Part shown: one piece after another, positions 19,095 to 32,624 of the stretch | How positions within the stretch are numbered: the stretch's first letter is position 1 | How the letters are laid out: every line of letters starts with the position of its first letter | Source of the DNA: an uncultured Balneola sp. | Lineage (GTDB): Bacteria > Bacteroidota > Rhodothermia > Balneolales > Balneolaceae | Assembly (NCBI GenBank): GCA_913058495.1 | Contig: CAJXQC010000002.1 | Location: forward strand, 186,001 to 250,000 | Direction: 5' to 3' | DNA length: 64,000 nucleotides | Notes under the pieces: model-generated | What the model was told of the DNA's origin: nothing | What the model saw: only the letters and a program-made list of their open reading frames with translations | The model's database searches: none | Translations under genes and position numbers: made by a program

Positions 19095-19117
19095 TGTAGA
19101 ATTTTAAATACAGAATG

Positions 19118-19609
19118 TTAATTTCGTACGGCTCTGGATGAACCATGATTCTGCATGATCTTCCATCCCGATTCTGTTTTCTTAAGAACTGAAGTAGCTA
19201 CGGCTTGTCTTTCTATAGTTCTGCTGTCTTCCCCTCCGGTCACGATCTTATAGTTGTACGTCTCAAAGGCTACTGCAATCTTTCCTTCAATTTGTACATC
19301 CACTTTATAATCGATGAACGAAAATTCTTTAAAATGACCCAATTCAGGTCCAATATGATGATCTAAATAATCCTGATAGCTTCCTTCATATTTTCCGTTT
19401 TCAAAAACATCTGCATCATCTGTAAATAGTTTTTGTGTTCCGGTTACATCTAAAGCCTCGAGTGCGTTTTTATACGCTTTCAGTACTTTTTTTACAGCTT
19501 CCACTTCCTCGGAACTTGCCATATTCTTATGATTCTCATGATCCATATTTTGAGCAAAAATCAATCCGGAAGTAGATAATAATAAGAGTGTTAGTATAAT
19601 TTTTTTCAT
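19118..19609 (-). CDS. NTF2-like (DUF4440-type) secreted protein
   Basis: 163 residues: signal peptide to about residue 19 (GLIFAQ), a short Met/His stretch (NMDHENHKNM) that may bind copper, and an NTF2-like domain ending WKIMQNHGSSR. It appears paralogous to the 145-residue protein downstream (WRVIALHWSSR). First gene of the three-gene minus-strand group with the cytochrome. No function can be assigned. Confidence 0.78.
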   Translation of the reverse strand: MKKIILTLLLLSTSGLIFAQNMDHENHKNMASSEEVEAVKKVLKAYKNALEALDVTGTQKLFTDDADVFENGKYEGSYQDYLDHHIGPELGHFKEFSFIDYKVDVQIEGKIAVAFETYNYKIVTGGEDSRTIERQAVATSVLKKTESGWKIMQNHGSSRAVRN

Positions 19610-19691
19610 AAGAGTGTTTGGTTTGTTTTAAGGTTTATTTTCTTACGGGTCCAAATTTTTAGTTGGATCCATAGTATAAAGTATTCTAAGA

Positions 19692-22235
19692 TTAATTTTT
19701 AACAGTGTCTGTTAAAAAGCCGGGCGCTAAAGTTTGAATTTCAGTACGTACGCTGTCAGCTTCATTGTTTTTATTTTCAGCTTTTAACTGCAAGTACTTG
19801 TAATATTGCAATCCAACTTCTACATATTTAATTTCGTTTTCTGGAAGCAAAGACAAATAAGGATCTTCCTGAGGAGGAAGACCTCTAGCTAACGCAGTTA
19901 TCAGTTTTTCAAACTCTTTACCCACTATATATGAGGCTTTTCCGGAATTAGCTTTTTGAGATAAAACAGGTGCATTAAATTCTATGGTTCGTTTGTCATC
20001 TGTATTTATTGGAATTCCTGATAAGCTATCTTTTATCGCTTGTAAATTTCCAAGATAAAAAAGACCTGCCATATGTGGTTTTGAAGAATCAGCTTTTTCC
20101 GCTGATGTTTCAATTATATTAGTAATATTTTTTTCAAGAACTCTTTGATCAAGAGAAGTTCCAGATGCTTGACCGATGAGCACAATACTTGCTCTGGATG
20201 TTGAGAAATCAGCCCGCCAAAGCGTAACCTGAGGGAATACGGAAGCAAAGGTAGCAGAAATGGTTTTAAAACTTTCAGGGGTCAATTGATAAAGGGGAAG
20301 CCATTGCGCAAATATTCCGTTTGAAGTTAAATGTTTTTTTGCCAGCTTAAACTGTTCTACAGTATAAAGTGTACCGGTTCCCTGGTGCCAGGGAGTGAAA
20401 AGATCGCCAATAATAACATCAAAGTTTTGGGATGTACCTAAAAGAAAATTTCGGGCATCATCTGGAACGATTTCAACGTTTGGACGAGTAAAAAGCTCAT
20501 TCACCCAGGGAGTAAAATGACGCTTAGCAGCGCGAATTACGTTAGGTACTAATTCAACAGTAACGATATGATCAACGTTATGATCTAAGGAAGCCCCTGC
20601 AGTAATTCCAGTCCCCATCCCTAAAAATAGTACACTTTTTGGTTCAGGGTGAAGTAGAAGAGGAATATGAGCCTGCATTTTTTCAACCAGTACTGACCGG
20701 GTGTCTCCAAGTACATAAAAATTATCCAGTCTCATTTGAATATTATTATCTGATTCTACAATTGAAACAACACCATCACTAGATTGCCAGATATCTAAAA
20801 TAGATTCATTAGCTTCCAAATGAACTAAAGGTGGATTTGGGATTAAAATTAATAATATCACTGTGAGTCCAGTAAGCGTCGTCCACCTTGTCCTTTTTTT
20901 AAAATAAAAGGTAATTAAAAGAGCTAAAGCAACATATATAATTGCAATTACCTTTACACTATTCCACAATCCGATGTAGTCGAGAAAGAAGAATCCTATA
21001 AGTAGAGGGCCAACCGCGCTGCCAATAGAGTTAAAAAAAACCAGAAGACCAACAAATGAACCCGATTTACGATTAATTTTAGGAGAAGCCTTTAGCAAAT
21101 ATGGGAAAACTGAACCAATAACTAACGTTGGAGGAAAAACTATTAAAAAACTAAGTCTGAAAATTGATTGTAGATAATCAGTCCATGAAGCACTTGCAGA
21201 AATATATTGAAGACCATTGGTAGCCATATTAAAAATCAATGGCGAGACTCCAATCATGATAGCACCAACCGATAATAGAATCACTATGGTAGGGATTACG
21301 GGTACGGAAATTCGTACAAGTAAATGAGACAGCATTCCGCCACAACCTAAAGCAATTAGAAATACAACCAAAATAGCAGAGAAAGAATACACAGAATTTT
21401 GCAAAACCTGAGCAAACATTTTTATCCATATTGTTTCTGCAGACAGAGCTAATAAACCTGAGCTAAATGCTAACACAATTATCAGAGAGTAACTGAGAGA
21501 ATTAGAGGGTAAGAGTTTTTTGTTAGATATAACTTCAGATTTATTCTTAGCAAAACCAGCCTTAGAATCATAAATAGTTAACCGATCAAGAACGATAGCT
21601 ATAATTCCTGTTCCTGCAGCTAAGGCTATTGCAAAATAATAAGTAGAACTGACACCATATTCCGAAAGAAGAAAGAACCCTGCTATAAAAGCACCGATTG
21701 ATGCACCTATGGTATTTACTGCATACAAGAATGTTCCTCGGATGGCAAGTTGATCCCGGTTTTCAGCAACATACTGGGAAAGAACCGGAAAAGTTCCTCC
21801 CATAAACAGGGTTGGTAAGAGTAATAGAGAAATGCTGAAAATAAACTTCCCAAAAGTCAGCATCCCTGCATTATTGCCAAGAATGTCTACAATAATTGGA
21901 TAGTTCGACTCATATAAACCTATTCCCGGAATCCAAAGCAATGCAGAAAGAGCGATACCTAACTCCATGAGGCCGTAAATGGATAAGGCATTGCGTAACC
22001 GTGTAGCAGCTTTACCCCAAAACCATCCTCCCAATGCCATTCCCAGGAAGAAAGCAGACAGTGTTGCTGCTGTCGCATAGGCAGCATTTCCAAAAACTAA
22101 ACCAAGGCGATACATCCAGACAACTTGTAAGATTAAGCCGGCAGTGCCTGAGAGAAAAAATAAACCCGCCAAAATAAATATATGTTTTGAACCGTGGGAT
22201 TTAATAATGAGAAGCTGTTTGGTATGGGTTGGCAC
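19692..22235 (-). CDS. Integral-membrane spermidine-synthase-like protein
   Basis: 847 residues in two halves. Residues about 15-470 hold many membrane helices of major-facilitator type (GTAGLILQVVWMYRLGLVFG, FLGMALGGWFWG). Residues about 480-760 form a spermidine-synthase-like methyltransferase domain with a nucleotide-binding VLFLGMGTGITAG and VELVPNVIRAAKRHF, then DDARNFLL. Such fusions occur widely, but the substrate is not known and true aminopropyl transfer is unlikely to be inferred safely. It is separated from susD by a terminator, so it is probably its own transcription unit. Confidence 0.82.
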   Translation of the reverse strand: MPTHTKQLLIIKSHGSKHIFILAGLFFLSGTAGLILQVVWMYRLGLVFGNAAYATAATLSAFFLGMALGGWFWGKAATRLRNALSIYGLMELGIALSALLWIPGIGLYESNYPIIVDILGNNAGMLTFGKFIFSISLLLLPTLFMGGTFPVLSQYVAENRDQLAIRGTFLYAVNTIGASIGAFIAGFFLLSEYGVSSTYYFAIALAAGTGIIAIVLDRLTIYDSKAGFAKNKSEVISNKKLLPSNSLSYSLIIVLAFSSGLLALSAETIWIKMFAQVLQNSVYSFSAILVVFLIALGCGGMLSHLLVRISVPVIPTIVILLSVGAIMIGVSPLIFNMATNGLQYISASASWTDYLQSIFRLSFLIVFPPTLVIGSVFPYLLKASPKINRKSGSFVGLLVFFNSIGSAVGPLLIGFFFLDYIGLWNSVKVIAIIYVALALLITFYFKKRTRWTTLTGLTVILLILIPNPPLVHLEANESILDIWQSSDGVVSIVESDNNIQMRLDNFYVLGDTRSVLVEKMQAHIPLLLHPEPKSVLFLGMGTGITAGASLDHNVDHIVTVELVPNVIRAAKRHFTPWVNELFTRPNVEIVPDDARNFLLGTSQNFDVIIGDLFTPWHQGTGTLYTVEQFKLAKKHLTSNGIFAQWLPLYQLTPESFKTISATFASVFPQVTLWRADFSTSRASIVLIGQASGTSLDQRVLEKNITNIIETSAEKADSSKPHMAGLFYLGNLQAIKDSLSGIPINTDDKRTIEFNAPVLSQKANSGKASYIVGKEFEKLITALARGLPPQEDPYLSLLPENEIKYVEVGLQYYKYLQLKAENKNNEADSVRTEIQTLAPGFLTDTVKN

Positions 22236-22277
22236 TATGGTCAGGCTTATATTCGATAAAGTACTTAGCTTAGAAAT

Positions 22278-22305
22278 AAAAAAGGGCTGTTCAAGCCCCC
22301 TTTTT
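22278..22305 (-). terminator. Terminator after the susCD genes
   Basis: Read on the minus strand, AAAAAGGGGGCTTGAACAGCCCTTTTT forms a GGGCT/AGCCC stem with A- and T-tracts. It lies just after the susD stop. The A/T tracts on both sides could make it work in both directions. Confidence 0.7.
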
Positions 22306-22330
22306 ATATTTTTTAAACTAGGTTTTCTGT

Positions 22331-23683
22331 TTAAGTATCTTGTTCATCCAGACATCCTTGGAAGTTTGGATTGTTCTCCTCAGACTGAGGTACTGGAAAC
22401 GAAAGTACAGGTTCATATTGCCCTCCTTTAAAATATGTACCCCAGGGGAACACATTTGCTGCATCTTTACCATATACACGTACCAATCTGCGCAGATCTC
22501 CCTGGCGGTGGCCCGTACTAAACAACCAGAAAGCTCTTTCTTTGAAATGGTACTCACTAAGCTCATCCTGATCCATTCCTGACAAGTCATCTGCAGGTAA
22601 TCCTTCCAGAGCTCTGAGGTTATTATGAATGTCTTCAACAGCCTGGTTATCCGTTGCTTGCACAGCTGCTTCAGCTTCAATTAGCCGCGCCTCAATACCG
22701 GAAGCCAGCACAACAGGTGCACTCGATGAAGGGTATTTAAGCTGATTGTAGTATTTGGTTATGTCATCTTGTCCTATTTCGTCATTGTCTTCCCAAGGAG
22801 TACGTGGATCATTTGCAGAGCGGAACATTAGCCCATTTCCACCTTTACCCTCAGCAATTGACCATTGCTGACGCACGGTACTCATAATATAGATTCCATT
22901 CTCTTGCCGCCTGCTATTATCGGAATGTTCGATGTTATAAACGAAGTCGGTGGGAACTGATTGAACAATGTTGGCTGCATCACTGATTTGGCCTAGCCCC
23001 AAAAGAGCGCGGGCTTTACCAATACGTGCAAGGTTCGCCATCTGTGTATTTGCCGTTCCTGCACTATTCAGTGCCTCGTCGAACCAATCTGCTGCACGGG
23101 TAAACATCTGCTCAGTTGTCAGCGGCTCCCCAAACTCTAAATCTCCACCATCCGCCGGAGCCTTACTGAAAGGTACTCCCGGACAATAGGTTTCTGCAAA
23201 CATTACATAGGAGTAGCCCGCAACATTCTGCATTTCGCTTTCTATGGCAGTTAAGCCGCCAATTTCCGCTGCCAGTTCGGCCGCTCTCTCAGCTGCAGCA
23301 CGGGCCCTGTGCATGTTTCCATAGATTCCGTCCATTGTTCCATTTGTATTTTGTACGTTTCGGGTATCTGCTTCACGCCTTGTAGGAAATGTACCCGTGT
23401 AAATGTATTCATCAGCCATAAGTGCACTCATTGTGACAAGACCAGGCGTTGCGCCATGACCTGCTGCCGACCCGCTCATGGCAACAGCCAAATCTCCGAG
23501 CGAACCCGCCCGAAGTGTTTCAAGACCTTCCTGTCCGCTCAACGATTCAGGGGTAACGATATCAGGATCTGTAACGTTAACCATATCATCACAAGAGTAA
23601 GTGCCAAACGCAACTATGGCTGTTATACCTGCAATAACAAGTTGTCTCCAAATTCGATTGTTATTTTTTAGTAGTGTACTCAT
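22331..23683 (-). CDS. SusD/RagB-family outer-membrane lipoprotein
   Basis: 450 residues: signal peptide with a lipobox-like TYSC (Cys about 30), then the TPR-rich SusD fold with the usual landmarks (NMHRARAAAERAAELA, IGKARALLGLGQ, LIEAEAAVQ, FKERAFWLFSTGHRQGDLRRLVR). It forms the lid of the SusC channel on the cell surface and captures a nutrient. Shorter than many glycan-type SusD proteins (about 500-600), which fits a ligand other than a long polysaccharide; substrate is unknown. It follows susC by 31 bases. Base composition looks clearly more GC-rich than fecR. Confidence 0.92.
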   Translation of the reverse strand: MSTLLKNNNRIWRQLVIAGITAIVAFGTYSCDDMVNVTDPDIVTPESLSGQEGLETLRAGSLGDLAVAMSGSAAGHGATPGLVTMSALMADEYIYTGTFPTRREADTRNVQNTNGTMDGIYGNMHRARAAAERAAELAAEIGGLTAIESEMQNVAGYSYVMFAETYCPGVPFSKAPADGGDLEFGEPLTTEQMFTRAADWFDEALNSAGTANTQMANLARIGKARALLGLGQISDAANIVQSVPTDFVYNIEHSDNSRRQENGIYIMSTVRQQWSIAEGKGGNGLMFRSANDPRTPWEDNDEIGQDDITKYYNQLKYPSSSAPVVLASGIEARLIEAEAAVQATDNQAVEDIHNNLRALEGLPADDLSGMDQDELSEYHFKERAFWLFSTGHRQGDLRRLVRVYGKDAANVFPWGTYFKGGQYEPVLSFPVPQSEENNPNFQGCLDEQDT

Positions 23684-23714
23684 AATAATTTCTCCAATTA
23701 AAAAATTTTAGCTG

Positions 23715-26700
23715 TTAAAATGATATGTTAAGACGTGCTTTCCATGTACGAACCGGAGGCTGTGTCATAAAATCATCGATAATGAAATTGCCTTGGCCTC
23801 TTGAGCTAATTTCGGGGTCTAGCCCAGTATAATTGGTCCATAAACCAAGATTTGCTCCTGAAAGCGTGAGACTTAGATCGGAAACTCCAAGTGCATCAAG
23901 CCAACTCAGAGGGGCATTGTAGGTTAGCGATACTTCACGCAACCGCCAAAATGAGGCATCTTCAATATATCCGGCTTCAGTACTAAAGAATTTAGAAGCT
24001 ACTGCCCTGGCCTGATTCTTCAGTGAGGCATTTGGGTCATTTAGAGCCTCTGTATTATTGTTTCCATTCCGCCATGCGTTTGTATTGTTATACAGTTTTC
24101 GTCCTCCTCTATAGTTCAGGAGTGCACTAACTACAATCCGGTCTCCAAATAAACCGGTTGTGCCTGTAAAGGTAACATCGGTATCTCCAAAAGGGGAGCC
24201 GAGATAAACAGCTTCATCACCTACAGTAACCTCATTTCTGCCTATCAGACCATCACCGTTAGCATCACTGAAGGTATATTTTTCATCCCAGTATCCACCC
24301 AAGGGGTAGCCTTCAACGTGGCGCTGAACACTGCTAATGAGAATAGGCTCAATTCCATTTCCTAGCTCCTTGAGTTCGTTGTTTATCAATGATCCTACTA
24401 TATTGAAGTCAAAATAAGCAGTTTCGTTTTGAAATACGGTGGTACTTAAAGAGAGCTCAAAGCCGGTATTGGCTACAGAGCCCAGATTTTCGAATCGGCC
24501 ACCTCCAGCACCAAGCGAAGGAGGAAGCTGCCTGAATATAAGGGCGTCCTGGGTTTGCTTGTTAAAATATGTGACTTCAAGAGCAACACGATCTGACAGT
24601 ATGGTTGCATCCATACCGATTTCAAATTCCCTTGAACGTTCTGGTTTAAGATCAGAATTACCGACCCCCCCAAAAGTTACCCCTGTTACACTTTCTCCAT
24701 TAACTGTGGATGCAATAGGTATAAAAAACCTCAAGGCATCGTTTGTGCCTGGCTGTACTCCTGAGTCGCCCCAAGCACTTCGAAGGCGAAGCGAAGATAA
24801 CCAGCGACTTGTACTAAAAAATGACTCTTCCGAAATTAGCCAGGAAGCACTAACTTTGGGATAGACTACCGCATTAAATTGGGCACCAAAAGCGCTTCCA
24901 CGGTCAGCCCGGACAGCACCGGTTACAAACAGTTTATCTTGAAAGTTAAGCCTTTCTTCTAAAAACATACCAACAGTACGCTGTTCGGTAGTTTGCTCAG
25001 TACTGGTAGTATTTGCTGCACCTGCAATTGATCCAGTCCCTGCTACTAACTGACGACCTGTTGCGAGTGTTCCTAGAGTCAAATCCCGTAGATACTGAAA
25101 TCCTACAGAAGTACGGGAAGATAAATTCTCAGATACTGCCTTACTATATGTTCCATTTACATCCAGAGTGTAGTTGAACACATCGAATCGATTCGATATA
25201 CGAACTCCATCTTTAAAATCAAGAAAATCCGGGGCTGTTCCTGTCGGAAAAAATTGATTGTCCCAGCGGGATGTATAATCCAGCCCACCCGACAACCGGA
25301 AATTCAGGTTTTGGGAAGGGATCCACTCTGTTTCAAGCCCAGTGGTAAAACGGTTAATCTGCTGGCGTGAATCAACAGTGAACAATTCGGCAGGAGTAAA
25401 CTCGCCCCATCCGTTATTGACATCTGGTGTGGCTTGCCCGTTAAGACCTTGCCCCAAAAGGCCTATAGAAAAAGTACCATTCATGGGGAGTTCCAAATTA
25501 CTATTTGTATATCCTGTATTCAGAGTAACCTTCAGATCTTCGTTAATATAAGATTGAAAGTTACCTCTTAAACTTGCTTTTTTAAGATTGTTAACTGGAA
25601 GAGTTCCTTGATTATCGGCATAGTTCCCAGATATAAAGTAGGTCAGTGTTTCGCTTCCTCCAGATACACTTAAACCTAATCCATAAGTATTTCCTGTACG
25701 GTAAGGGGAACTTACAGATTCGTTAAGTGGCTGATAGGAACTAATACTGCTCTGAGTACAAGTACCTTCCGCCGCTTCGAAAGTAAAACAAGGATTCCCT
25801 GATGCATTAACTGCACGGAAGTTATCAGGGTATGTAGTCACATTATTTACGATTCCGGTTTCTGTAAAGGCCACCCATCTTGGCTCACCAGATTTGCCTT
25901 TTTTTGTTGTAATACGAATAACCCCATTGGCAGCTACCGAACCATATAGGGTTGCTGCTGAGGGTCCCTTAATAACTTCGATAGATTCAATATTTTCCGG
26001 ATTGAGATCGCCTAACCGAGACGGTGCCTGCCCTCCGGTTTCAAAAGAGATAGAATTAGGGTCGTTATTAATTCTGACACCATCAACATAAATTACTGGT
26101 TCGTTAGATAGTGAGGCACTATTCGAGCCACGAATTCTGATCCGGGTTCCCATTCCAGTAGCTCCGCCACTATTTACAATTTGTACCCCTGCTGCCTGTC
26201 CTTGAAGCAACCCGGAAACATCACTAATAGGTCGTGTTTTAACATCTTTAATTGCATCTATTCTTGCTATAGAGTTACCAATCTCAACTTTTCGTCGAAC
26301 TCCGGTTGCAGTAACCACAAGTTCATTCATACTTAATATATCAGGCATTAGTTCAAAATTCAGAGTATTTATGCCATCTGAAACCTCGATAGGTTTACTT
26401 ACTGGGTTAAAACTGATAAAAGCAGCTGTAATAATCTGTGAACCAAGAGGAACATTATTTATTGTATAATTACCCTTCAAATCAGTAGAAGCGCCTTTGG
26501 TAGTACCCTTTACAATAATAGTAACCCCAACCATAGGTTCGCCTGTTTTACCATCTATAACAGTACCAGTCAAAGTACCATCAATAACGGTAGTAGAAAT
26601 TTTTCTTTTGATTACTACTTGACCTCGAGGAGAAGCTAATAGCTCTAGATTCGTATTTTCCAATACCTTTTCCAACGCTTCTTTAACTTTAATTTTTTCT

Positions 26701-26978
26701 AAATTCAGAGTTATTTTCTGATCTGGAATAAGTTGTTTATTGTAGGATAGCTGAAGCTTTCCCTGTTCAGCAATTTCTTTTAAAGCCTCTTCCAATGAAA
26801 CATCATCCAAAGTTAGAGACACAATTTTTTCATAAAGTGATTTAGCTTGATAATCCTGATCGTACCATTCAAGTAGAACAAATTGATTGCTTTCATTTTG
26901 TGCATGAACATTAGGCATCAATAATATTAATACCACACAAGTATGAAGTAATAAAGTAAGTAGCTTATTATTTTTCAT
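23715..26978 (-). CDS. SusC/RagA TonB-dependent receptor with STN signalling domain
   Basis: 1087 residues. Order: signal peptide; an STN (secretin/TonB N-terminal) domain at about 50-125 (LEEALKEIAEQGKLQLSY...); a carboxypeptidase-regulatory-like domain at about 135-225 (GTVIDGKTGEPMVGVTI); the plug (VVTATGVRR... GLLQGQAAGVQIVNSGG... IRIRGSNSA); and a 22-strand-type barrel ending KARLNISF. The STN domain is what contacts an anti-sigma factor across the periplasm, so the receptor should signal to FecR, 14 bases upstream. It imports a ligand captured by SusD, using TonB energy. Confidence 0.94.
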   Translation of the reverse strand: MKNNKLLTLLLHTCVVLILLMPNVHAQNESNQFVLLEWYDQDYQAKSLYEKIVSLTLDDVSLEEALKEIAEQGKLQLSYNKQLIPDQKITLNLEKIKVKEALEKVLENTNLELLASPRGQVVIKRKISTTVIDGTLTGTVIDGKTGEPMVGVTIIVKGTTKGASTDLKGNYTINNVPLGSQIITAAFISFNPVSKPIEVSDGINTLNFELMPDILSMNELVVTATGVRRKVEIGNSIARIDAIKDVKTRPISDVSGLLQGQAAGVQIVNSGGATGMGTRIRIRGSNSASLSNEPVIYVDGVRINNDPNSISFETGGQAPSRLGDLNPENIESIEVIKGPSAATLYGSVAANGVIRITTKKGKSGEPRWVAFTETGIVNNVTTYPDNFRAVNASGNPCFTFEAAEGTCTQSSISSYQPLNESVSSPYRTGNTYGLGLSVSGGSETLTYFISGNYADNQGTLPVNNLKKASLRGNFQSYINEDLKVTLNTGYTNSNLELPMNGTFSIGLLGQGLNGQATPDVNNGWGEFTPAELFTVDSRQQINRFTTGLETEWIPSQNLNFRLSGGLDYTSRWDNQFFPTGTAPDFLDFKDGVRISNRFDVFNYTLDVNGTYSKAVSENLSSRTSVGFQYLRDLTLGTLATGRQLVAGTGSIAGAANTTSTEQTTEQRTVGMFLEERLNFQDKLFVTGAVRADRGSAFGAQFNAVVYPKVSASWLISEESFFSTSRWLSSLRLRSAWGDSGVQPGTNDALRFFIPIASTVNGESVTGVTFGGVGNSDLKPERSREFEIGMDATILSDRVALEVTYFNKQTQDALIFRQLPPSLGAGGGRFENLGSVANTGFELSLSTTVFQNETAYFDFNIVGSLINNELKELGNGIEPILISSVQRHVEGYPLGGYWDEKYTFSDANGDGLIGRNEVTVGDEAVYLGSPFGDTDVTFTGTTGLFGDRIVVSALLNYRGGRKLYNNTNAWRNGNNNTEALNDPNASLKNQARAVASKFFSTEAGYIEDASFWRLREVSLTYNAPLSWLDALGVSDLSLTLSGANLGLWTNYTGLDPEISSRGQGNFIIDDFMTQPPVRTWKARLNISF

Positions 26979-26992
26979 TGTTACGTTGCTGA

Positions 26993-28033
26993 TTAGTTAT
27001 GGTTTCTTTTAAAAGTGATGGACTTGTTATTTTTTGAATACGCTATATCTAGAGATAAAGCCAACGCATCAAGAACTTCTTCTAGAGGTTGCTTTCGGTT
27101 AAAGGTTGCAGTAATAGTTAATTCTTTTATTTCCTTATCTTTAATTTCAAAGGGAATGTTATACCAGCGCTCTAATCGATCTGTTATTTGACTCAAGGGT
27201 TGGTTTTCAAAAATCAATTTTCCCTCCATCCAGCCTAAGTATTTATTAACATCTATGTTCCTAACAGTTATTTTTTTACTGGGAGTATAACTCCCTAGTT
27301 CTCCTGGTTTCAAGAAAACTCGTTCATTCTCTTTTACAGCAAGTACACTAACACTTCCTTCCAAAACAGCCATTTCTACGGATAAATCAGGTGGGTATGA
27401 AATAACGTTAAATTGAGTTCCGAGCACCTTTGTAATTGTTCCATTAATATGTACTTTGAAAGGTCTTTCAGGGTCAGATATAACATTAAAAAAAGCTTCT
27501 CCAGTTAAGAAAACATCTCTGTTTCCAGTAGTATAATTTTCTGAAAGGCGTAGCTTACTATCTGGAGCTAACGTGACTTTAGACCCATCACTCAATATGA
27601 AACGCTTTTGCTCGCCTTTTTTAGTAATTAGTTCTTGATACTGAATTTCCTGAATCTGGTTTACAGTATCCTCTTTCTCGATATGAGAATAGATAACGCT
27701 TGTTAATGTGGCGATTAAAAAGAGAGCTGCAATATGAACTATTTTAGCTAAAGTAAAGCGTGAAGATCTTTCTTTTCTATAATCAAAAGAAAGATCTTTT
27801 GCATTTTCTTTTTTTTCGAAATCCAGACGTTTCTTAATCTTAAACCAAGCTTTATTATGATCCCATTTATTACCTTCTTTATTCGATAAATTCCAGACCA
27901 AACGAGCTTCTTCAACTTGCTTTTTGAAATTTTCATCAAATTCTATCTTCTTTTTTATAATCTTTTTTTCAAAGGAGCTGCAGTTGCCGGAAACATACTT
28001 GGCTATTATAGTCCACCGCCTATTTTTTCTCAT
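26993..28033 (-). CDS. FecR-family anti-sigma factor
   Basis: 346 residues: cytoplasmic N-terminus (about 1-90), one membrane helix (IVHIAALFLIATLTSVIYSHI, about 93-113), a periplasmic FecR domain (RFILSDGSKVTLAPDSKL... DVFLTGEAFFNV), and a C-terminal DUF4974 domain (LIFENQPLSQITDRLERWYNIPF). It would hold the ECF sigma factor encoded upstream until the SusC receptor binds ligand. It lies 191 bases downstream of the sigma gene and 14 bases upstream of susC. Clearly more AT-rich than susD. Confidence 0.92.
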   Translation of the reverse strand: MRKNRRWTIIAKYVSGNCSSFEKKIIKKKIEFDENFKKQVEEARLVWNLSNKEGNKWDHNKAWFKIKKRLDFEKKENAKDLSFDYRKERSSRFTLAKIVHIAALFLIATLTSVIYSHIEKEDTVNQIQEIQYQELITKKGEQKRFILSDGSKVTLAPDSKLRLSENYTTGNRDVFLTGEAFFNVISDPERPFKVHINGTITKVLGTQFNVISYPPDLSVEMAVLEGSVSVLAVKENERVFLKPGELGSYTPSKKITVRNIDVNKYLGWMEGKLIFENQPLSQITDRLERWYNIPFEIKDKEIKELTITATFNRKQPLEEVLDALALSLDIAYSKNNKSITFKRNHN

Positions 28034-28224
28034 GTATAAAGTTCGTTATACTTTAACGTTGTACTACCAATACAACTGAGAAATGTATTACCCTTACAGT
28101 AACCTGCTTTTTTTTACAAAAGGGTATAAAGTGTATTTGAAATGTATAGAAGAGTATGCTCGACAGTAAAGAAAGCTTTACCAAAATTACTTAATGAAAG
28201 AAAAATTGACAAAAAAGATGAAAT

Positions 28225-28772
28225 CTATTCAAAATTTCTTTTAAGGTGGCTTCTAAGATATTTAAGAGCTCTTCTCATTTGAGTCTCTACAGTTTTAATG
28301 GAGATATTTAGTACTTCGGCTATTTCCTGATAGGTGAGGCCATGATTTCGGCTAAATTCATAAATAGTGCGTCTTTTTTGGGGGAGCTGGTGAATGGCTT
28401 CTTCTATCCATCTTCTTAGTTGTTCAGAACTGTTTATTTCTTTTGAGACGTTATCGGTATAAGTTGGCTTGGTTGCTTTTTTTTCATCTTCCCATTCCTG
28501 TACTATTTTCTGATGCTTTAAATAATTTAAAGATTGATTACGGGTAGCCCTATATAAGTAAGATTTGATGCCTCCCTTAGGATTCCAGTCTTTTTTTTTT
28601 CCCAGATATTGGTAAAGATATCCTGTACTTGATCTTCTGCCACATGAGGATTTTTTACATACTTATATGCATAGTCACATAATGGTGAGTAATAGCTTTT
28701 AAATAGTCTTTCAAATGCAGAAATATCTCCTTCCTGGATCTTATTAATAATAATATTATCCGATGTCTTCAT
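28225..28772 (-). pseudogene. ECF RNA polymerase sigma factor, frameshifted at an A10 run
   Basis: Two reading frames together give a full sigma-70 family ECF factor. Frame one (from ATG 28772) gives IIINKIQEGDISAFERLFKSYY... VQDIFTNIWEKKK, the region 2 half. After the run of ten A (minus strand; T10 at 28591-28600) the matching frame is another, DWNPKGGIKSYLYRATRNQ... then HQLPQKRRTIYEFSRNHGLTYQEIAEVLNISIKTVETQMRRALKYLR, the region 4 half, ending at TAG 28225-28227. Eight or eleven A would restore the frame. Read directly, the protein stops after 81 residues. It may be a true mutation, a sequencing error, or slippage-dependent expression. FecR, SusC and SusD downstream are intact. Confidence 0.85.
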
Positions 28773-28857
28773 AATAATAGGATTTCCTCAGTTCAAATAA
28801 TAAAGTTCTTCGCAAAAAGGGGAACACGTGGCACTCAGAATAGGTTTTACTCATCTA

Positions 28858-28995
28858 TCATGCATAATACTCCCCTATCATACAATATTGATTCTTGGTA
28901 ATCCTTAAAGAACTAATCTTTAAGACATATCTACCCAGCTCATCGAAGATATCGAGTAATACCTTAGCATCCGGTGCATTCATAAATTTGGTCAT
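28858..28995 (-). CDS. Small open frame of unknown function (45 residues)
   Basis: ATG at 28995 follows AGGAGAAG on the minus strand, a strong ribosome site, and the frame ends with TGA at 28858-28860. The peptide (MTKFMNAPDAKVLL... GEYYA) has no signal peptide and no motif I know. It fills part of the 436-base gap 28773-29208 between the sigma gene and the DUF2231 gene; apart from this I see nothing in that gap. It might be a remnant of a larger gene. The RBS is the main reason to list it. Confidence 0.35.
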   Translation of the reverse strand: MTKFMNAPDAKVLLDIFDELGRYVLKISSLRITKNQYCMIGEYYA

Positions 28996-29208
28996 TTTCT
29001 CTTCTCCTATAAACAAATTGAACAATATTTAAAAAATTTCATCTATACTTATAACCAGAGCAAAGTTAGATTTAATGAATACAAGAATAGCTTCGTAGAC
29101 TAAAATATCCTGTAAAGCTTATAAAACTAGATGTTAAAAATCATACGTCTTTCATTAGTATCACTTAATACCCGTTATTTTTAAATAGGACAGGCATTAT
29201 TGAGTGAA

Positions 29209-30336
29209 TTATAATTTGATTAAGCTCATTTTTTCAAGTACAACAGTACCATCTCCCATAATTTTGATACCAACACCACCTGCTTTTGGTGCGTCACCAT
29301 GACCATGGACAACCATTTCTTTATCTACATATCCACGAAAATGTGTGCCGTTCCCAACAACTCGTACAAACATAGATTTTGAAACATCCGTCGTTCCTTC
29401 TTCAAACAGCTCTTCTTTTCCGTTAACCATTCGACCTTGTTTAACAGTACCATCTGAAGCAACAGATACAAAATCAAAATTAGACTCGTCTTGCACATTA
29501 TTTGTTAACATTACCATTCCTTCAAGTGCTGATATGTCTAAATAATAGTCTACTTGTGTTGTTTCGTAGGATTCGTGCCCAACAAAAAAGCCATTTAGAT
29601 TATTTCCACTGAACGAAAGAGCGTAGCTACCATTGGTAGTTTGTACAGCCTCAGCATTTACCTCTTCTAAACTTCCTGTTAACCAATGAAAATTATTTTT
29701 CAAATCAGCTATGGCATTTTTGTCGATATTCCATTCCCAGTTTCCATTTTCTGTGGCTTTAAAAGCAGTAGAGTTTCCCATTGAACTATCATCATGACTT
29801 TCTTGGGAAGTTTCCGAATGCTCTGACATGCCTTCATCATGATCGGTTTCATGATCGTGTTGCTCCGGATTTTCGATATCAACAGCTTGTACACCCACTC
29901 CATACTGATAAACCATCTGAGCTCCTCTATCTCCTGCTTGATATAGTAAAAATGCTCCAACAAATGAAAGTAAGGTCAAACCTATTCGCAATGGTTTTAT
30001 CTCGGATTTACCCCAAAAATATACACCAATTCTCAAGAGTGCGTATAATCCCATAAACCAAACTGTATACTCAGCCCAATCAGCATGTGCAGTCAATAAA
30101 TTCTGAGTTTCAGCTTCAATAAACACACTATCTGCAGCTTCCTTTCCTGAGAAATAAGTCCCAATCCCTGCAATTCCGGAGAGACTGTATAAGATCAAGT
30201 TTTTTTTCTCATCCCACCAGCTTTCCGGCAGAAAATACCCGGCAACATCCATAATTATTGCCATTATAAATAATGCGATCGGGAAGTGAACGATCATTGG
30301 GTGTATGTTCGGTGCCCATTCCGGTATAAGTTCCAT
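29209..30336 (-). CDS. DUF2231 membrane protein with His-rich linker and beta-sandwich domain
   Basis: 375 residues in three parts. Residues 1-140 hold four helices of the DUF2231 type (NIHPMIVHFPIALFIMAI...), with conserved His that may ligate haem or metal. A His/Asp/Ser-rich linker follows at about 155-185 (HDHETDHDEGMSEHSETSQESHDD). The C-terminal 190 residues look like a concanavalin-like or DUF1080-like beta-sandwich (YYLDISALEGMVMLTN... VVLEKMSLIKL). It is divergent from the CusRS-type genes and may share the direct-repeat operator at 30406-30424, so a copper-linked role is likely but inferred. Confidence 0.75.
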   Translation of the reverse strand: MELIPEWAPNIHPMIVHFPIALFIMAIIMDVAGYFLPESWWDEKKNLILYSLSGIAGIGTYFSGKEAADSVFIEAETQNLLTAHADWAEYTVWFMGLYALLRIGVYFWGKSEIKPLRIGLTLLSFVGAFLLYQAGDRGAQMVYQYGVGVQAVDIENPEQHDHETDHDEGMSEHSETSQESHDDSSMGNSTAFKATENGNWEWNIDKNAIADLKNNFHWLTGSLEEVNAEAVQTTNGSYALSFSGNNLNGFFVGHESYETTQVDYYLDISALEGMVMLTNNVQDESNFDFVSVASDGTVKQGRMVNGKEELFEEGTTDVSKSMFVRVVGNGTHFRGYVDKEMVVHGHGDAPKAGGVGIKIMGDGTVVLEKMSLIKL

Positions 30337-30405
30337 GATATTGTTTGTTTTTAAGTTAATTTTGAATCAATCTATTTCTATTTTAAGAACATTATACAAC
30401 ACCGA

Positions 30406-30424
30406 ACCTTAAAACTACCTTAAA
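30406..30424. promoter_or_regulatory. Tandem direct repeat, possible response-regulator box
   Basis: ACCTTAAA occurs twice (30406-30413 and 30417-30424), exactly 11 bases apart, one helical turn, as in OmpR/PhoB-family binding boxes. It lies between the divergent DUF2231 and cusR-like genes. Binding by the adjacent response regulator is inference. Confidence 0.45.
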
Positions 30425-30478
30425 GTAGTAGCAAATAATTTATATTTATATGAAATCTAAAATCGAATTGGTTGATTT

Positions 30479-31195
30479 ATGTGGATTTTATTAGTTGAAG
30501 ATGAAATTTCCCTCTCCAAGTCTTTAAAGAAAGGACTAGAAGAAGAAGGATTTGTAGTTAAAATTTCCAGAAATGGCGAAGAAGCAGAATTACTTGGAAA
30601 ATCTAACTCCTACGACCTCTCAATACTGGACTGGAGACTCCCAAAGAAGGATGGACAAGCGGTGCTTAAAGCATGGCGGTCACATGGCGTTGACTTCCCT
30701 GTTTTAATGCTAACTGCTTTGGGCGATACTGAACACAAAATCATTGGCTTAGACTCTGGTGCCGATGATTATATGAATAAACCATTTTCTTTTGATGAAC
30801 TATTAGCGCGGGTAAGAGCTCTTTTAAGACGAAAACCACAGTATTCAAATACTGATGATATTAATATTGGAGCGCTTCATTTCAATAAAAGAAAACGTAC
30901 AGTAAGTATTTTCGGAAATTCTATTTCTTTAAGAGCAAAAGAGTTTCTGATTCTTCAACTTTTGCTGAGCATTGATGGCGGAGTTTTTTCAAAACACGAA
31001 CTTGCTGAACGTGTGTGGGGATCGGACACAGTTAGTGATAACACTATTGAAGCAACTATATCTATGTTAAGAAACAGTCTGGCCAAAGCTTATGAGAATA
31101 AAGGAATTAAATTTAATGATGACACTTATCTCATTGAAACAGTACGTGGTGCAGGATATAGACTGAATACAAAAATACTTAAGAGCTTGAGTTAA
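30479..31195 (+). CDS. cusR: OmpR-family response regulator, CusR-like
   Basis: 238 residues: receiver domain at 1-115 with the phosphorylation Asp in LSILDWRLPKKDG, conserved LTALGD and KPFSFDELLAR, then a winged-helix DNA-binding domain (LRAKEFLILQLLLS... NTIEATISMLRNSL... IETVRGAGYRL). It is followed four bases later by its histidine kinase. Its place beside a copper efflux island suggests a Cu/Ag responder like CusR or CopR; the symbol rests on context rather than on sequence alone. Confidence 0.8.
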   Translation: MWILLVEDEISLSKSLKKGLEEEGFVVKISRNGEEAELLGKSNSYDLSILDWRLPKKDGQAVLKAWRSHGVDFPVLMLTALGDTEHKIIGLDSGADDYMNKPFSFDELLARVRALLRRKPQYSNTDDINIGALHFNKRKRTVSIFGNSISLRAKEFLILQLLLSIDGGVFSKHELAERVWGSDTVSDNTIEATISMLRNSLAKAYENKGIKFNDDTYLIETVRGAGYRLNTKILKSLS

Positions 31196-31199
31196 ACTA

Positions 31200-32624
31200 A
31201 TGAACAATTCATCTTTTACTGCTTTTCAACGGCTGTCCATTTCTAAAAAATTATCGCTTTGGTACGGCTTAAGTCTTTTTATTCTTTTAAGTGTATTCGC
31301 TTATTTTTTGTATCAGACATTTCATTCTTCTATCCACCATAACTATGATCGGCATCTCAGATATGAAACAGAACAAATTATTCCTTTTTTAAAAACATCA
31401 ACTGTCAGCTTAGGAATAGATCTTACTTTATACAGCCGTAATGAAGCACTCATGGAGGAAAAAAACTTCGGTACTTATGTTCGCTTGTTTGATGCTCAAA
31501 AAAATTTACTCTATCAAAGCCCTAATTTTAATAAACATTCAAAACTTCCTGTAAAAATACCTTCAATTTCGTCCCAAGTATCTTTAAGTACTACATGGCA
31601 AGATCTTCCTTTAAGAACTTATTACCATCCGATAATAAATTATGACAATAAACTTGTAGGATGGCTCGAAGTTTCGGGGTTTGAGTGGACATTGCATGAA
31701 GAGTTAGTCCGCCTTAGAAAGTATCTGATCTTGTTGGTTACAATAAGCGTTGTATTTTCTATCCTAGGTGGGTACTGGCTGTCTAAAAAGGCTCTTTCCC
31801 CAATTAGCTCAATTACTTCTTCTGTAAATTCTATTAAAGCATCTGAACTTCAAAAAAGAATACCTGCAAATCCCGAAGTTGAAGACGAGCTTACAGAACT
31901 TTCTCATACATTTAATATGATGTTAAGTCGCTTGCAAAAAGCTTTTGAACGAGAAAAAAGATTTACTGCTGATGCCGCTCATGAGTTATCAAATCCTCTG
32001 GCGTCAATAAGAAATGAAGTTGAAGTAACGCTCCGAAAGCCCAGAGAAAATGAAGAATATGAAGCCACCTTGGGTAATGTACATCAAGAAACAATCCGAA
32101 TGTCGTCAATTATTGAATCATTACTACAACTTTCAACCGTTGAAGCTAATGAAAAACTTGATTTTGAACTCATAAACATAAATGATGTCTTAACAGAAAC
32201 GATTTCCAGATTTACGGTCCGCATTGCAAAAAAGGATCTTGATCTTGTTGCAAATATCGATTCAAGTGTAAAAATCAAAGGCAAAAAAGAGTACTTAGAA
32301 GAAGTATTCGGAAATCTTATTTCTAATGCGGTAAAATATAGTGATCCCGGAAAAACGATCAGTATTACACTTAAAAAGAAGAACAATGCAGTTCAATTTA
32401 CCATTAAAGATGAAGGCTACGGTTTTGATAGTGAAACAAAGAAACGTCTATTTGATAGGTTTTACAGATCTGATCAACCTTCTGTTCAGCAAGAAGCAGG
32501 AAGTGGCCTTGGACTTGCTTTAGTGAAAGCTATTGTAGAATTATTTGAAGGAACTATTAAAGCAACAAGTAAAGGAATTAGCAAGGGTAGTACTGTTACG
32601 GTCCAGTTTCCTTTGAAAAGTTAA
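31200..32624 (+). CDS. cusS: Sensor histidine kinase, CusS-like
   Basis: 474 residues: membrane helix at about 22-42, periplasmic sensor of about 130 residues, second helix at about 175-195, HAMP (SKKALSPISSITSSVNSI), an H-box with the phosphorylated His in AADAHELSNPLASIRNEV (HELSNP replaces the usual HELRTP), and a HATPase domain with N-box GNLISNAVKYS and G-box DEGYGFD and GSGLGLALVK. It should phosphorylate the regulator encoded four bases upstream. The periplasmic part has few Cys or Met, so the metal specificity is not visible in it. Confidence 0.85.
   Translation: MNNSSFTAFQRLSISKKLSLWYGLSLFILLSVFAYFLYQTFHSSIHHNYDRHLRYETEQIIPFLKTSTVSLGIDLTLYSRNEALMEEKNFGTYVRLFDAQKNLLYQSPNFNKHSKLPVKIPSISSQVSLSTTWQDLPLRTYYHPIINYDNKLVGWLEVSGFEWTLHEELVRLRKYLILLVTISVVFSILGGYWLSKKALSPISSITSSVNSIKASELQKRIPANPEVEDELTELSHTFNMMLSRLQKAFEREKRFTADAAHELSNPLASIRNEVEVTLRKPRENEEYEATLGNVHQETIRMSSIIESLLQLSTVEANEKLDFELININDVLTETISRFTVRIAKKDLDLVANIDSSVKIKGKKEYLEEVFGNLISNAVKYSDPGKTISITLKKKNNAVQFTIKDEGYGFDSETKKRLFDRFYRSDQPSVQQEAGSGLGLALVKAIVELFEGTIKATSKGISKGSTVTVQFPLKS

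Follow-up and report, generated by a model that had tools for sequence, protein, structure and literature searches.

The window (the whole stretch of DNA analysed here, 64 kb in length, from the genome of an uncultured marine Balneola species, G000) carries a group of genes on the minus strand that begins with an ECF sigma factor gene and continues with genes for a FecR-like regulator, a SusC/RagA-type outer membrane protein, a lipoprotein-like product in the SusD position and a fused membrane protein (Table 1). The sigma gene adjoins both a FecR gene and a gene for a TonB-linked receptor with an STN-like domain, which is the layout of FecI/FecR/TonB-receptor surface signalling. An earlier interpretation of the letters and their open reading frames (the sequence-only reading) had described this signalling chain as intact. 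Both the FecR and the SusC genes are indeed intact; the STN domain of the SusC protein is a less firm assignment, as its Pfam match (E = 1.2e-5) lies below the curated cut-off. The gene that follows SusC has no match in Pfam or NCBIfam; by eye its product is SusD-like, and it may possibly represent a divergent SusD branch.

Table 1 Features of the sigma–FecR–SusCD locus, with positions in the window
Feature	Position	Strand	Content or basis of assignment
Zero-frame open reading frame, 81 aa	28527..28772	-	Sigma region 2.1-2.2, then out-of-frame residues past the run
A10 run, site of the frame change	28591..28600	-	Codons GAA AAA AAA AAG
Downstream frame, 124 aa	28225..28599	-	Remainder of region 2 (2.3/2.4), and region 4; stop-free
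FecR-like anti-sigma factor or sigma regulator, intact	26993..28033	-	PF04773, PF16344; stop-free in the G003 copy
SusC/RagA TonB-linked outer membrane protein with N-terminal STN-like domain, intact	23715..26978	-	TIGR04056
SusD-position outer-membrane lipoprotein-like gene, intact	22331..23683	-	Position after SusC and look of the sequence
Fused membrane/spermidine-synthase-like protein, 847 aa	19692..22235	-	PF01564, NF037959; after the SusCD pair

The frame change in the sigma gene

Re-reading of the sequence gives a run of exactly ten A at 28600–28591 of the minus strand (T10 on the plus strand). The zero frame opens with an ATG at 28772 and stops at 28527; its product (MKTSDN...IFTNIWEKK) departs from the family sequence past the run. 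From the same point the −1 frame reads KKKDWNPKGGIKSYLYRATRNQSLNYLKH... and stays open for 124 codons, until a stop at 28225. The two parts of the gene sit in different frames that are joined at the A10 and are out by one base, and 11 or 8 A at the run would restore the sigma frame, being in the right register for a +1 or −2 change. The exact run and the two frames confirm the frameshift that the sequence-only reading had described, and its account of a clean second half with a normal stop also holds.

The position of the break within the protein needs correction. The sequence-only reading had assigned regions 2 and 4 to the two frames; the split is at the A10 as stated, but it falls inside region 2, past 2.2 and before 2.3/2.4, rather than between regions 2 and 4. 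In ECF sigma factors, regions 2.3 and 2.4 melt the promoter and contact its −10 element, so the 81-aa product is predicted to be unable to act as a sigma factor. The upstream product covers positions 1–37 of the 71 in the Pfam Sigma70_r2 profile and the joined protein covers positions 1–69, and the downstream part matches sigma region 4 (E = 7e-19). The joined protein scores 173.4 bits against TIGR02985 (Sig70_bacteroi1), above the cut-off of 126.4, whereas the halves alone (53.8 and 111.5 bits) both fall under it. The gene is a FecI-like ECF sigma gene of the Bacteroidetes type that is not one unbroken frame in the DNA.

Within the window this A10 is the only A run of nine or more, and shuffled sequences give more such runs. 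Pattern searches across the genome found six A runs of at least ten in total; the other two that lie clearly within genes are in frame. The longest run in G000, an A13 (L046, G000:C12:54629-54641), is located at or just ahead of a gene start.

The allele in related genomes

A second Balneola species (G003, Balneola sp. MAG HCUG1436-7), which was separately assembled, has the same A10 at the same locus, where 1,893 of 1,906 bases are identical to those of G000 (99%; 13 substitutions and no gaps). This bears directly on an error of sequencing or assembly within the run, which the sequence-only reading had offered as the plain alternative. Homopolymers are error-prone, and the stated coverage of the G003 contig is low (6.5x), which leaves a small doubt. 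Against this, the identical A10 recurs in two separately assembled species whose flanking sequences differ by 4–5%, and the A10 runs located elsewhere within genes keep the reading frame in both genomes; we therefore regard an error as very improbable.

In orthologues from other genera of the family (G049, with the same operon order, and G106) the gene is unbroken, and E and D are separated by three residues (IWEIRKDW and IWEKREDW). This W-E-xxx-D-W spacing fits an A11 in the Balneola gene and bears out the register proposed earlier for an intact protein. Around 100 more distant homologues are each in a single frame and have short A runs, none of them long at the junction site. The run itself is not conserved: among 394 genomes of the phylum, TGGG-A10 occurs in the 2 with the Balneola copies and in none of the 392 others. 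A slippery site conserved across Bacteroidota ECF genes is ruled out by this count and the unbroken homologues, and the A10 site appears to be private and young rather than a conserved programmed signal. The comparison of run lengths covers one genome per species and two copies of the allele, both with ten A; searches of plasmid and viral contigs found no further copies of the locus.

The sigma gene lies in a 13.5-kb block (window positions 19111–32616) that is 99.2% identical between the two species, with 113 mismatches, compared with 95–96% in the flanks, which suggests a recent exchange between species. The part that contains the sigma, FecR and SusCD genes (approximately 19610–29208) is absent from the corresponding place in all six of the other Balneola genomes searched. 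The simplest reading is that the block was recently exchanged between the two Balneola species with the frameshift already in it; given the 113 mismatches that separate the copies, the frameshift is not brand-new. The sole indel in the block is one T at around 29031–29036, upstream of the sigma gene, close to a cluster of five substitutions at 29118–29148.

We used synonymous and intergenic sites, pooled, to estimate a neutral rate of 0.020 per site between G000 and G003. These sites predict around 11 changes in the sigma gene, of which 2 in 548 positions are seen, both downstream of the run, one synonymous and one replacing W with R. The deficit has a one-sided p of 0.002 for the whole gene and 0.03 for the downstream part. 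Measured against local neutral sites, the values become 0.05 and 0.18, respectively, and 0.14 for the whole gene once the five-change cluster is counted as one. As the significance fades in the local comparison, selection on the frameshifted sigma gene is suggestive only. Decay of region 4, which the sequence-only reading had named as the mark of a plain pseudogene, is not seen: the downstream frame is stop-free in both copies and retains 32 of 33 conserved columns, and relative to the outgroup G054 it shows neither surplus unique changes nor a speed-up. Between the same two genomes, dN is well below dS in SusC (0.0050 and 0.028) and in the SusD-like gene (0.0010 and 0.016). Both genes appear to be under purifying selection by this measure, and the transport pair, and with it the operon, still seems to be in use after the frameshift.

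Possible leaky expression and its alternatives

Our preferred explanation, to which we give close to an even chance, is that the loss of a single A left the sigma gene leaky rather than dead, and that the gene is kept partly functional through slippage of RNA polymerase. A FecI-like ECF sigma gene would head a FecR–SusC–SusD operon, and one A would have been lost from an A11 (or equivalent) stretch before the two Balneola copies separated. RNA polymerase would then slip on the A10, such that transcripts that gain one A or lose two encode an unbroken sigma factor; the remaining transcripts would give the 81-aa fragment, unable to work as a sigma factor, and the FecR/SusC signalling chain would run on a lowered sigma supply. 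Slippage is plausible because there are precedents at A9–A11 tracts: it reaches 55% in spa13 of Shigella flexneri (A10) and 20–25% in tssM1 of Citrobacter rodentium (A11), and it also occurs in the mur genes of Buchnera (A10). Published values for such tracts are approximately 15–55% realigned transcripts, and 12–50% for poly-A tracts of insect symbionts (PMC4256274, PMC6260861, PMC5009743). The Shigella regulator mxiE is produced through transcriptional slippage (PMC1088944). If the Balneola polymerase behaves as in these cases, some full-length sigma factor would be made; we infer the slippage in Balneola, the amount of protein and its relevance to the cell.

Several observations count against leaky expression. 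The p values for constraint on the sigma gene rise to 0.05–0.18 locally, and one of the two changes is the replacement of W with R; the run is kept in no other genome and is therefore no programmed site of long standing; and transcription of the operon might not depend on this sigma factor. The main rival, which we consider possible but on balance doubtful, is a plain young pseudogene, in which a single-base loss recently killed the sigma gene, the 13.5-kb segment that carries it passed between the two Balneola species, and too little time has elapsed for decay. The youth of the copies (evident from the higher identity of the block than of its flanks), the weakness of the local constraint tests, the frequency of homopolymer loss as a mutation and the absence of the operon from other members of the genus are all consistent with such a pseudogene. 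It accounts less readily for the shortfall of sigma changes relative to the pooled neutral expectation and for the continued constraint on SusC and SusD, and a tract of ten A would be expected to leak, given what is known of polymerase slippage.

The run might also have been retained as a device, with slippage setting a low and noisy level of the ECF sigma factor such that the nutrient-uptake operon is on in some cells or only slightly; we consider this improbable. A phase-variable switch, in which A10 (off) and A11 (on) interconvert in a population of on and off cells, we judge to be unlikely. In other bacteria, long runs of one base mutate readily and undergo phase variation, and the gene has both the off/on register and a clean downstream frame; however, the two known copies both have ten A with no difference in length, the searched sets contain no intact copy of the allele, and no such run occurs in the other 392 genomes of the phylum. 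The suggestion of the sequence-only reading that cells could switch by changing the run length thus finds no support.

A route that the sequence-only reading missed is −1 ribosomal slippage at the in-frame heptamer A_AAA_AAG (dnaX type), which would yield the same protein: GAA AAA AAA AAG followed by GAC in the −1 frame encodes exactly E-K-K-K-D. The sole tRNA-Lys found (in an incomplete list of 34 tRNAs) has the anticodon UUU. No stimulator is visible, however. In a folding model without pseudoknots, sequence 3′ of the A10 folds no better than shuffled sequences (z from +0.8 to +1.7) and thus shows no stem-loop beyond chance, and the 30 nt upstream of the run contain no Shine-Dalgarno-like element. 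The heptamer is ordinary in this genome, with 13 further in-frame copies of A_AAA_AAG in open reading frames of the window, and we consider ribosomal frameshifting to be a highly unlikely source of the full protein. A two-piece sigma factor of the SigO/RsoA type is ruled out for lack of a usable start codon in the downstream part: no ATG, GTG or TTG precedes residue 108 of the 124 in its frame, and no such open reading frame of at least 60 aa is listed.

Comparison with known systems

The frameshifted sigma gene resembles known slippage-rescued genes and is not a new kind of system. Similar to mxiE of S. flexneri (a T9 run), it encodes a transcription regulator in two overlapping frames that are joined at a homopolymer, and the longer product depends on the gain of one base in the mRNA (PMC1088944, PMC6260861); MxiE is AraC-like and its slippage was demonstrated by experiment, whereas here we infer it. 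Shigella spa13 (A10), C. rodentium tssM1 (A11), Yersinia tssM3 and the Buchnera mur genes (A10) share with it a poly-A run in an out-of-frame gene, and in these a fraction of the transcripts gives the full-length product (PMC4256274, PMC6260861, PMC5009743); unlike the Balneola gene, they are secretion or cell-wall genes in which slippage has been measured. Gene order, domain content and protein family (TIGR02985) are those of the ECF sigma/FecR/SusC–SusD trans-envelope operons of Bacteroidota, but the homologues examined, around 100, are unbroken and the Balneola allele is frameshifted. The Escherichia coli dnaX −1 ribosomal frameshift is similar in having A_AAA_AAG in the correct frame, and differs from the Balneola site, at which neither a stem-loop nor an upstream stimulator was found.

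If the protein is made, an ECF sigma factor would join the short list of bacterial regulators that use polymerase slippage, and a gene that an annotation pipeline would call a pseudogene could still control its own operon. Expression through slippage may be without known precedent among ECF sigma factors; a literature search, which was not exhaustive, found no paper that joins an ECF sigma factor, a frameshift and slippage. If the gene is dead, the locus would be a clean case of the loss of a regulator while the SusCD operon remains selected. Elsewhere in G000, another ECF sigma match (L011, G000:C39:16565-16894) has one in-frame TAA within the aligned stretch.
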